Source of the DNA: a virus | DNA: 27,289 nt | Virus record (IMG/VR): IMGVR_UViG_3300003876_000010 | Span: 1 to 27,289 of that record | Strand: one strand, 5' to 3' | In this document: piece after piece, positions 429 through 2,693 of the stretch | Position numbering within the stretch: position 1 is the stretch's first letter | Layout: every line of letters begins with the position of its first letter | The notes under the pieces: model-generated | Told to the model about the DNA's origin: nothing | The model's database searches: none | What the model saw: the letters and a program-made list of their open reading frames with translations, nothing else | Translations under genes and position numbers: made by a program

Positions 429-866
429 CTACACCTCCCCATTCTCGATTCCTTTGTGCCTTCCAAATGAATTGCTTTCTTTGGTCAATATTATTTTGGA
501 CAGGTCGACAGGTTCCTGTTTTCCACCTTTTCCCCGCTTAGCTAAAGATTCAGCCTTACCATGAGCCAATGTCAACTTGTCCCATATCTCCTCCTTACTC
601 ACACCGCCGGAGGTCAACGCTAAGACCGCCTCTTTAACGTCACCTATAGTCTTGCTTTGTTTCTTGAAATTGCCGTACATCTCGCCATCAGGGAGTCCTA
701 CGTTGCCATTCTCTGAGACGTACCCCTTCATATGCTCCTCGGCTTTTTTAAGAAGCTCTTTCACTTTCTCAACGAAAACAACCGCCTCTGTGAAGTCTTC
801 CGTGTTCTGGATTCCAGAATCAGGAAAAGTTAAAGCCTCTATTTTTCGCTCGTCTTGCTTACCCAC
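429..866 (-). CDS. Hypothetical phage protein of the recombination operon
   Basis: 145 residues, charged, mostly helical in appearance. The N-terminal half is rich in E and K (VEKVKELLKKAEEHMKGY) and could form a short coiled coil; the C-terminal part is basic (ESLAKRGKGGKQ). The GTG start at 866 is chosen because AAGGAGGA lies just upstream with good spacing, inside the last codons of the nuclease gene, which it overlaps by 28 bases. No family is recognised. Its place directly after an annealing protein and a nuclease suggests an accessory role in recombination or replication, which is inference from context only. Confidence 0.75.
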   Translation of the reverse strand: MGKQDERKIEALTFPDSGIQNTEDFTEAVVFVEKVKELLKKAEEHMKGYVSENGNVGLPDGEMYGNFKKQSKTIGDVKEAVLALTSGGVSKEEIWDKLTLAHGKAESLAKRGKGGKQEPVDLSKIILTKESNSFGRHKGIENGEV

Positions 867-1573
867 TCGATCCTCCTTACTTGAAATTTACAAAGCATGA
901 ACACTGTACAGCTTGAACATGCGCTAAAACTTGGTTGCCACTCAGTCCAATCATTAACATCTAGCGTTTTCAAATACTCTTCCGCCCTGATTATCTTCCC
1001 TTTCATCTCCCCGAAAAGACCGTCAGCATCCCCCTTCTCCCCATGAGTTTTAGTGAAACTAAGGAGATGGTCGGTGTCAATGTTCATATAGGGAAAAATA
1101 AAGGAAGACCAGAAGATGCGACTCTTATCTAGCGTGGCACGATAGCTCATAGCGTAGAAGTCCCTTTGAAGCTCATCGTACTTACCACTCGCTCCCATCT
1201 TCCAATCTATAAAACCACCACCTGCCACGGAATCGATTATAGCTAAGGTAAAAGCTCTCTCTTTGTCCATAACTACTTGCCCTTCATCATCCAGCATTAT
1301 AGTTACCTCAGCTTCCGTCCCCCATGCAAGCTTCTTAACCTTGTTCCACGCCACCCTATCTTCGTCATTGTCTGCAAGCATTTTCTCTGACTTATTGGCT
1401 CCGGCCTTTATGAGCGATTCAAATAGCGAGTGCTTCTCTTTTCCTCGCTTCATCGCTTCATTGGGGAACCCTCTATTGCCAAGCACATAGTTAAGATAAA
1501 ACCTCTGCTTACAGGTTTTAAGTGTGTTAACCCTGCTATATGACCACGGTCTGAAAGAGTTAGAACAGGTCAT
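839..1573 (-). CDS. PD-(D/E)XK nuclease, Cas4/RecB-like, with probable Fe-S cluster
   Basis: 244 residues. The core motifs of the RecB/Cas4 nuclease family are visible: H48, E88, D114 in IIDSV, then D123-W-K125 (the DxK part of PD-(D/E)XK), and a Q136-x3-Y140 motif. One cysteine near the N-terminus (C21 in LKTCKQRF) and three near the C-terminus (C219, C222, C228) match the four-cysteine iron-sulphur arrangement of Cas4 and AddB. A 5'-3' exonuclease that makes single strands for the upstream annealing protein is the likely role. It starts at an ATG overlapping the last codons of that gene by 14 bases, so the two are probably translationally coupled. Nuclease class is well supported; the partner role is inferred. 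Confidence 0.8.
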   Translation of the reverse strand: MTCSNSFRPWSYSRVNTLKTCKQRFYLNYVLGNRGFPNEAMKRGKEKHSLFESLIKAGANKSEKMLADNDEDRVAWNKVKKLAWGTEAEVTIMLDDEGQVVMDKERAFTLAIIDSVAGGGFIDWKMGASGKYDELQRDFYAMSYRATLDKSRIFWSSFIFPYMNIDTDHLLSFTKTHGEKGDADGLFGEMKGKIIRAEEYLKTLDVNDWTEWQPSFSACSSCTVFMLCKFQVRRIEWVSKTSEK

Positions 1574-2543
1574 CGTAGCTACCCGAAGGTTCGCTAGAAA
1601 TAGTAGGAGGCTCTCCCTCCTCGCCCATGTCGCCTATTTCGGCTTTCTTCTTCTTCCATTCATTGCGAAGCATTGCCATCTTGTCCGGCGCAACACGTTT
1701 TTGTGCTTTGAGTTTTTCCGCTATTGTTTCAAGGTCTTTAACGGTCATAGCGGCACGAATAGACTCCAAGTGAACCTTAGCGACCCCTCCCAATTTGGAT
1801 TCGGATGGAGGAGTTTCTGGTGGGGTTCCGTTCGTTACCTCGCCCTCAGTATCGCCTACGTCCCCAACAAATTGAGAGTCATAAACGGGCAGGTCTTCAA
1901 CGTCCTGTGTGAAGATATCCGATGCCGCCGTAGCTGTCAGGACAGCATCAACGTGCGCTCTCTTCTTTGCCATCTTTAACACGGTGTTATAGTAGTCAGC
2001 AGGGTTGTCGTGTTCCACACGTCCCGTGACTTGTCCTTCTATTGCCTTGTCGCCATCGTCCCACTTCTCTCCGCAACCGCCCTTTGTAGCGTAACACAGC
2101 CACCCTCCACCATATTCAGCCCTACCTTTTATTATGGTTTCTTTTCCGCACTCAGGGCATTTTTTGCTGGCTGTACGAAAGCGATACTTGCCTTCCATTG
2201 TTGAACACGAACCAAGCCCCTCACCGAGGAAATTGCCCGACCCTACATGCTCCAAAACGCACCTCACCATATACTCTCTATGCCCACCGGCAGAACTTTC
2301 TTTGTCAACAATGTAACGAGGAGCCATTCTAAAAAGAAGGGAAAGCTTTTCGGCTCCGGGCTTTAACAGTGTGGGCTTGTTGCCACAGCCGGGGATAGTT
2401 CCGTAATGCTCGTCCTTTTTCATTACGGATTTCATCGCTTCTTGGATAAGTCTAACCTGCCCGACAAGCGACTCGGTACTCAAGGTTTCCTCTATAGAGA
2501 GTGAAGAATTTTTGTGGGGCTGTAATTCTTGACCTGCGCTCAT
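1560..2543 (-). CDS. Putative single-strand annealing protein with embedded zinc ribbon
   Basis: 327 residues; first gene of the left operon, with AAAGGAG five bases before the ATG. Residues about 25-75 (VGQVRLIQEAMKSVM, then HYGTIPG and TLLKPGAEKL) and about 180-215 (NTVLKMAKKRAHVDAVLTAT, then FTQD) belong to a conserved phage family that I recall as usually unnamed. The late helix with its KMAKKRA run resembles the ERF/Rad52-type pattern. Between the two halves sits a zinc ribbon with cysteines 129, 132, 150 and 157. Residues 225-327 are a low-complexity linker and a charged tail ending in an acidic DDLF, a form reminiscent of protein-interaction tails. The annealing function is inferred from the pattern and the nuclease next door. 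Confidence 0.6.
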   Translation of the reverse strand: MSAGQELQPHKNSSLSIEETLSTESLVGQVRLIQEAMKSVMKKDEHYGTIPGCGNKPTLLKPGAEKLSLLFRMAPRYIVDKESSAGGHREYMVRCVLEHVGSGNFLGEGLGSCSTMEGKYRFRTASKKCPECGKETIIKGRAEYGGGWLCYATKGGCGEKWDDGDKAIEGQVTGRVEHDNPADYYNTVLKMAKKRAHVDAVLTATAASDIFTQDVEDLPVYDSQFVGDVGDTEGEVTNGTPPETPPSESKLGGVAKVHLESIRAAMTVKDLETIAEKLKAQKRVAPDKMAMLRNEWKKKKAEIGDMGEEGEPPTISSEPSGSYDDLF

Positions 2544-2657
2544 ATGCGCTCCTTTATTTACGGCTTGGCAAGTCCCTTTTAGATAAAGAGGAGATGTGAC
2601 GCACCGCTAAAGGAAAAGAGAGCTTACCAAGCCATGTTTATCTATGGCGCATCACAT
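2544..2657 (-). promoter_or_regulatory. Structured 5' leader RNA with three crossing complementary blocks
   Basis: Between the predicted transcription start (about 2657) and the first gene (2543). In transcript order, block A1 (2657-2646, AUGUGAUGCGCC) pairs with A2 (2605-2594) over 12 bp with two G-U wobbles. B1 (2644-2637, UAGAUAAA) pairs perfectly with B2 (2587-2580). C1 (2633-2623, GGCUUGGUAAG) pairs with C2 (2572-2562) over 11 bp with one wobble. The order A1-B1-C1-A2-B2-C2 means every helix crosses the others, so they form either mutually exclusive folds or a multi-stem pseudoknot. C2 ends seven bases before the ribosome site (AAAGGAG, 2555-2549), and UCCUUU in the C1-A2 linker can pair with it. 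A regulatory RNA is inferred; no known class was recognised. Confidence 0.55.
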
Positions 2658-2663
2658 GACTAC

Positions 2664-2692
2664 TTTATACCCCTTGACACAGAGAGTGTCAA
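2664..2692 (-). promoter_or_regulatory. Sigma70-type promoter of the recombination/replication operon
   Basis: On the minus strand, -35 TTGACA (2692-2687, perfect), a 17-base spacer, and -10 TATAAA (2669-2664, five of six). The predicted start near 2657 is an A that is also the first base of helix A of the leader. It lies downstream of the last late gene and upstream of the annealing-protein gene. Confidence 0.75.
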
Positions 2693-2693
2693 G
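2673..2693. promoter_or_regulatory. Operator-like perfect dyad over the -35 box
   Basis: CTTGACAC, five bases, then GTGTCAAG: a perfect inverted repeat with 8-bp arms. One arm contains the -35 hexamer and the other lies in the spacer, so a bound protein would block RNA polymerase. A full arm extended to CTTGACACAG recurs in opposite orientation at 2805-2814. No repressor gene is visible in the window. Confidence 0.6.

Follow-up and report, generated by a model that had tools for sequence, protein, structure and literature searches.

The leader of T4 gene 32, which encodes a Zn(II) single-stranded DNA (ssDNA)-binding protein, contains a pseudoknot (PMC3014915), an element of about 28 nt that is followed by a less structured UUAAA/UAAA tail of >40 nt (PMC535899). 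The pseudoknots of the Escherichia coli rpsO (S15) and alpha-operon (S4) leaders encompass the ribosome-binding site (RBS) and work through entrapment of the ribosome (PMC10931766), and the STAXI motif occurs as two to three tandem copies, frequently with UUCG loops (PMC2864571; Weinberg 2010). Finally, three helices in the order ABCABC make up the "pseudotrefoil" class of genus 1, to which one survey assigned 51 RNAs (PMC3390330).

The stretch of DNA analyzed here in full (the window) is a virus record of 27.3 kb, in which a leader (positions 2657 to 2544, minus strand) occupies the interval from a predicted promoter to the gene start at 2543. A first-pass annotation had reported three helix pairs of 12, 8, and 11 bp on this strand, in the order A1 B1 C1 A2 B2 C2, and all three are indeed present and mutually crossing (Table 1): helix A consists of 12 bp, two of which are G-U pairs, helix B contains 8 bp that are Watson-Crick throughout, and helix C (11 bp) reaches 13 bp in total if another G-U pair, its second, is admitted. 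An additional 8-bp helix, D, was absent from that annotation; C and D together form a 21-bp hairpin with one bulged base, and C/D dominates the predicted fold. C2 is followed by only the short stretch AAAUAAAGGAGCGCAU, of which about 4 nt precede the Shine-Dalgarno sequence (SD). The record contains no second copy of the leader, and no open reading frame of at least 60 amino acids overlaps it; three start-stop mini-ORFs without an SD were seen at 2657 to 2624 (minus strand), namely AUG-UGA at the predicted +1, AUGCGCCAUAGAUAA (MRHR), and AUGGCUUGGUAA (MAW).

Table 1. Features of the leader and its surroundings, in order of transcription (window positions).
Feature	Position	Strand	Remark
Perfect palindrome CTTGACAC-TCTCT-GTGTCAAG	2673..2693	.	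Covers -35 and spacer
Sigma-70-like promoter TTGACA-17-TATAAA	2664..2692	-	Predicted +1 near 2657; consensus reading
A1, helix A 5' arm	2646..2657	-	At predicted transcript 5' end
B1, helix B 5' arm (8 bp)	2637..2644	-	
C1, helix C 5' arm (13 bp, 2 G-U)	2623..2635	-	
D1, helix D 5' arm	2614..2621	-	Prolongs C past one bulged C (2622)
E1, possible anti-SD (UUCCUUUA)	2608..2615	-	Partner 2556-2549; chance level
A2, helix A 3' arm	2594..2605	-	Inside C/D loop
B2, helix B 3' arm	2580..2587	-	Base 2580 common to B2 and D2
D2, helix D 3' arm	2573..2580	-	
C2, helix C 3' arm	2560..2572	-	
SD, AAAGGAG	2549..2555	-	Short A/U-rich GUAAAU immediately 5'
GCGCAU, SD-AUG spacer	2544..2549	-	Alternative partner of A1 (2652-2647)
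PHROG 10048 protein, putative annealing protein, RAD52-like fold and zinc ribbon	1560..2543	-	
PD-(D/E)XK exonuclease	839..1573	-	Overlaps annealing gene (same operon)

As in the gene 32 operators of T4, T2, and RB69, through which gp32 represses its own mRNA, the pseudoknot predicted here lies in a phage 5' leader, 5' of the RBS, a (putative) ssDNA-handling recombination protein with a zinc site is encoded downstream, and a UAAA-type stretch, very short in this case, precedes the SD. In contrast to the T4 element of about 28 nt, the helices here span about 98 nt and include a 21-bp stem, the >40-nt UUAAA/UAAA tract has as its counterpart only about 4 nt between C2 and the SD, and the encoded protein belongs to PHROG 10048, with a predicted RAD52-like fold, and not to the OB-fold ssDNA-binding proteins represented by gp32. 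While the T4 gene 32 operator thus appears to be the nearest functional analogue, the leader was not filed as a member of the gene 32 type, because neither the long A/U tract nor the protein family matched. With the rpsO (S15) and alpha-operon (S4) leaders, it would share a pseudoknot controlling translation of the encoded operon, but the RBS is located just outside the proposed pseudoknot here. The STAXI motif is likewise a pseudoknot RNA found near ssDNA-binding or DNA-manipulating genes; unlike STAXI, the leader is present as one copy and contains no UUCG in 2544 to 2657, and a search of Rfam gave nothing at the gathering threshold, STAXI included (best permissive E value, 1.1). Although the first-pass annotation knew of no named RNA class with this layout, the order of the blocks is that of the pseudotrefoil (PMC3390330), which is a topological class rather than a homologous family and which would require all three helices to form jointly, an unlikely event in this leader.

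Upstream of the leader, TTGACA (2692 to 2687) and TATAAA (2669 to 2664) are separated by 17 bp, and another 6 nt lead to 2657. On this consensus reading, transcription would start near 2657, which fits the earlier claim of a start at the first base of A1. A stricter promoter scan did not list the pair, because the -10 element ends in A and lacks the final T. The palindrome in this region is probably a repressor operator; no other perfect copy was found in the window, and a half-site-like sequence, CTTGACACAG, was seen again near 2815 (minus strand).

The crossing arrangement exceeds what is expected by chance. Compared with 4,000 dinucleotide shuffles, the crossing pair A+C scored 54 (shuffle maximum, 49) and the triple A+B+C scored 71 (shuffle maximum, 52), and the leader was the top-scoring crossing site when both strands of the window were scanned. 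Just two loci attained the pair score of 54 when 412 kb of DNA from related phages was scanned as 21,480 windows of 114 nt, and one of the two is a tandem repeat rich in GC. This corresponds to an expectation of about 0.1 equally good crossing pair per 27-kb window; the pair is unusual, not astronomically so, and the exact match of the crossing site to the 5' leader gives added weight beyond the score. Very high crossing-helix scores were observed at L006:3166-3258, where GC-rich tandem palindromic 11-bp repeats lie within a coding frame, and for that reason the site was set aside as a comparable case. With A and C fixed, any third crossing helix equal to B arose in 3% of linker shuffles, and one between the two linkers of B itself arose in 0.16%; helix D was equaled in 0.22%. 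A fourth in-order pair, helix E, which would engage the SD region, was discarded, being reached at chance level (13% of linker shuffles). The Vienna minimum free energy (MFE) of the 117-nt leader was -37.8 (z = -3.65), with the z score weakening to -2.35 once 15 coding bases were added.

The gene directly downstream was assigned to PHROG 10048, a PHROG of unknown function. An AlphaFold model built from 38 homologues (pLDDT, 73) had human RAD52 chains as its 11 best PDB matches, all weak (best E value, 2.7e-3; low TM-score), and no Pfam annealing-protein match was obtained for the protein. The protein contains a cysteine-rich, zinc-ribbon-like insert (C129, C132, C150, and C157), as do its nearest homologues. 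On the basis of the RAD52-like predicted fold and the neighboring PD-(D/E)XK exonuclease gene, the annealing protein guessed at in the first-pass annotation is plausible, and the operon likely produces an annealing-protein/exonuclease pair. As for other members of the family, an Omnitrophota metagenome-assembled genome encodes a PHROG 10048 homologue (L057:1637-3214) with an intein-like in-frame insertion between YYN-C... and ...HN-TVLKM, and a LAGLIDADG_3 match (E value, 0.0065) in one alignment member probably stems from this homologue. At L083:2501-3934, the match extends over about 1.4 kb for 207 residues, which suggests a second large insertion.

Relatives of the leader were sought at loci that encode homologues of the gene: two overlapping sets of 47 and 80 loci from IMG/VR, 13 genome loci, and another 14 loci in whole genomes. 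The closest homologue is about 67% identical across the conserved part, and a partial homologue, which ends before its leader (L048), shows 79% identity over 38 residues. The leader sequence was absent upstream of all fetched homologue loci; no relative was found by sequence search of phage and plasmid records, in capsid relatives and the genomes with the nearest homologues, or in scans of neighboring genes, and the capsid relatives, as far as searched, contained neither the gene nor the leader. When IMG/VR was scanned with the pattern of the A pair, the match was a coding region, and a degenerate A pair gave zero matches; the only matches to the pattern of the C pair were one unrelated contig and a locus resembling a tRNA. 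C itself has some likeness to a Thr anticodon arm, but reading it as part of a tRNA-like element was dismissed, as ARAGORN found the window free of tRNAs.

The homologues mostly reside inside operons, with short gaps and without such a leader, and their leaders as a group were not enriched for structure. Only those of L074 (z = -6.1), L062 (z = -4.3), and L119 (z = -3.3) fell below a z score of -3; they are unrelated in sequence, and those of L074 and L062 are able to pair with their own SD. These three structured leaders are suggestive, albeit not proof, of recurrent leader control. The L074 leader (L074:2253-2467; the same in L075 to L077) precedes a 52%-identical homologue, is unrelated in sequence to the leader studied here, and contains mutually exclusive helices, namely TTCCGCTGG/CCAGCGGAA, CGCTGGC/GCCAGCG, and an SD-masking pair, GCGGAACTCT/GGAGTTTCGT. 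In the leader of the Geobacter homologue (L062:1892-2000), a possible 10-bp helix, TCTGTCTTCT/AGGAGACAGA, lies over the SD.

Which of the helices could coexist was evaluated with a coarse model of rigid A-form helices and the actual loop lengths, without a threading test. Helix A and the C/D hairpin were easily accommodated together, as an H-type pseudoknot, whereas B and C/D were impossible together, and A, B, and C could be joined only if D was open and several links were fully extended. Given this geometry and the base shared by B2 and D2, the leader is therefore best described as one H-type pseudoknot plus competing alternatives, not as three simultaneous helices; of the multistem pseudoknot initially proposed, the combination of A with C/D is thus feasible, while the coexistence of A, B, and C is not supported, as B excludes C/D. 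In rough energies, the A stack (-22.8), C/D (-26.1), and a pseudoknot penalty of about 9.6 add up to a crude estimate near -39 for the pseudoknot, and the alternative of C/D with A1 paired to the spacer (-34.2) lies within a few kcal/mol of it. An MFE walk along the growing transcript yielded an A-based hairpin at about nt 57 to 93, C/D from nt 96, and finally A1:GCGCAU. This predicts cotranscriptional exchange, with the A hairpin being displaced by C/D once C2 has been made, in line with the helix-exchange switch of the first-pass annotation. The SD was largely unpaired in every predicted state, which makes its direct sequestration by A1 a weak candidate; any translational effect would therefore be expected to involve the spacer and AUG, mRNA stability, or the binding of a protein, and not simple masking of the SD.

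We propose from these observations that the leader, from about 2657 (+1) to 2544, acts in cis as a structured, untranslated RNA that controls the recombination operon as a pseudoknot or folding switch, with the annealing protein as the likeliest effector, a reading to which we give about even chances. The bulged C/D hairpin would enclose a large loop, from which A2 would pair with A1 at the 5' end, and the competing pairings (the A-only hairpin during transcription, B, and A1 with the SD-AUG spacer) would turn the pseudoknot into a switch through which the translation or the stability of the mRNA for the annealing protein and the exonuclease is tuned. By analogy with T4 gp32, the most attractive, if unproven, effector would be the annealing protein itself: when in excess of its single-stranded DNA, it might bind the single-stranded loop or the pseudoknot and repress its own mRNA. 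Several observations weigh against this reading: none of the searches yielded a homologous leader, and hence no covariation supports the helices; the homologues lie mostly within operons and lack such a leader; the SD is predicted to be largely free; and the RAD52 match is marginal.

It seems improbable that the repeats are instead DNA elements, i.e., protein-binding inverted repeats of a promoter/operator or replication region, of which phage operators and origins are frequently composed, even with a clear palindrome, the probable operator, adjoining at 2673 to 2693. The elements lie entirely 3' of the predicted +1, the leader is single copy in the record, and the best crossing triple on the opposite strand near the site scored just 52, versus 71 on the mRNA strand. 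Moreover, at all four positions where A and C deviate from perfect DNA symmetry, the mRNA sense has G-U pairs, a pattern already taken as a sign of selection on RNA by the first-pass annotation. With a chance of about 1 in 16, assuming that mismatches are random transitions, it moderately supports RNA over a DNA operator, the argument being somewhat weaker as the helices were extended through G-U but no other mismatch. An ordinary stable hairpin leader with chance complementarity and no regulatory role would agree with the restriction of the leader to one contig, with the lack of conservation, and with the two equally good loci per 412 kb (about 0.1 per 27-kb window), but such coincidence would have to have placed a score unreached by shuffles in a 5' leader and not at a random site, and we consider it doubtful at best.

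Somewhat unlikely, in our view, is that the functional element is the C/D hairpin alone, as an RNase III site or 5' stabilizer of an early mRNA, with A serving as a secondary or 5'-end-protecting stem. RNase III prefers about two helical turns, which 21 bp with one bulge approximate, the leaders of lambda and T7 provide precedent for hairpins as RNase III processing sites or 5' stabilizers, and C/D dominates the predicted fold; left unexplained are the 12-bp helix A at the predicted +1 and a crossing score above that of all shuffles. A true pseudotrefoil, with A, B, and C formed simultaneously, is very unlikely: although B is perfect and rare between its particular linkers (0.16%), the rigid-helix model just fits with D open, and ABCABC folds are known (PMC3390330), such a fold demands the opening of the 8 bp of D (C alone, -17.5, versus C/D, -26.1) and fully stretched links and is impossible alongside C/D.

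Returning to the cis-regulatory pseudoknot or folding switch, we speculate, as a long shot, that the competing helices (A, B, C/D, and A1:spacer) might be exchanged by the downstream RAD52-like annealing protein itself, by which the mRNA would sense annealing activity. If true, such exchange would represent a second, independently evolved case of viral autoregulation through a leader pseudoknot, beside that of T4 gene 32. If the operon of a phage annealing protein indeed has a pseudoknotted leader, this would be a second case open to testing, and it would point to convergence of recombination proteins that handle single strands on control by leader RNA.
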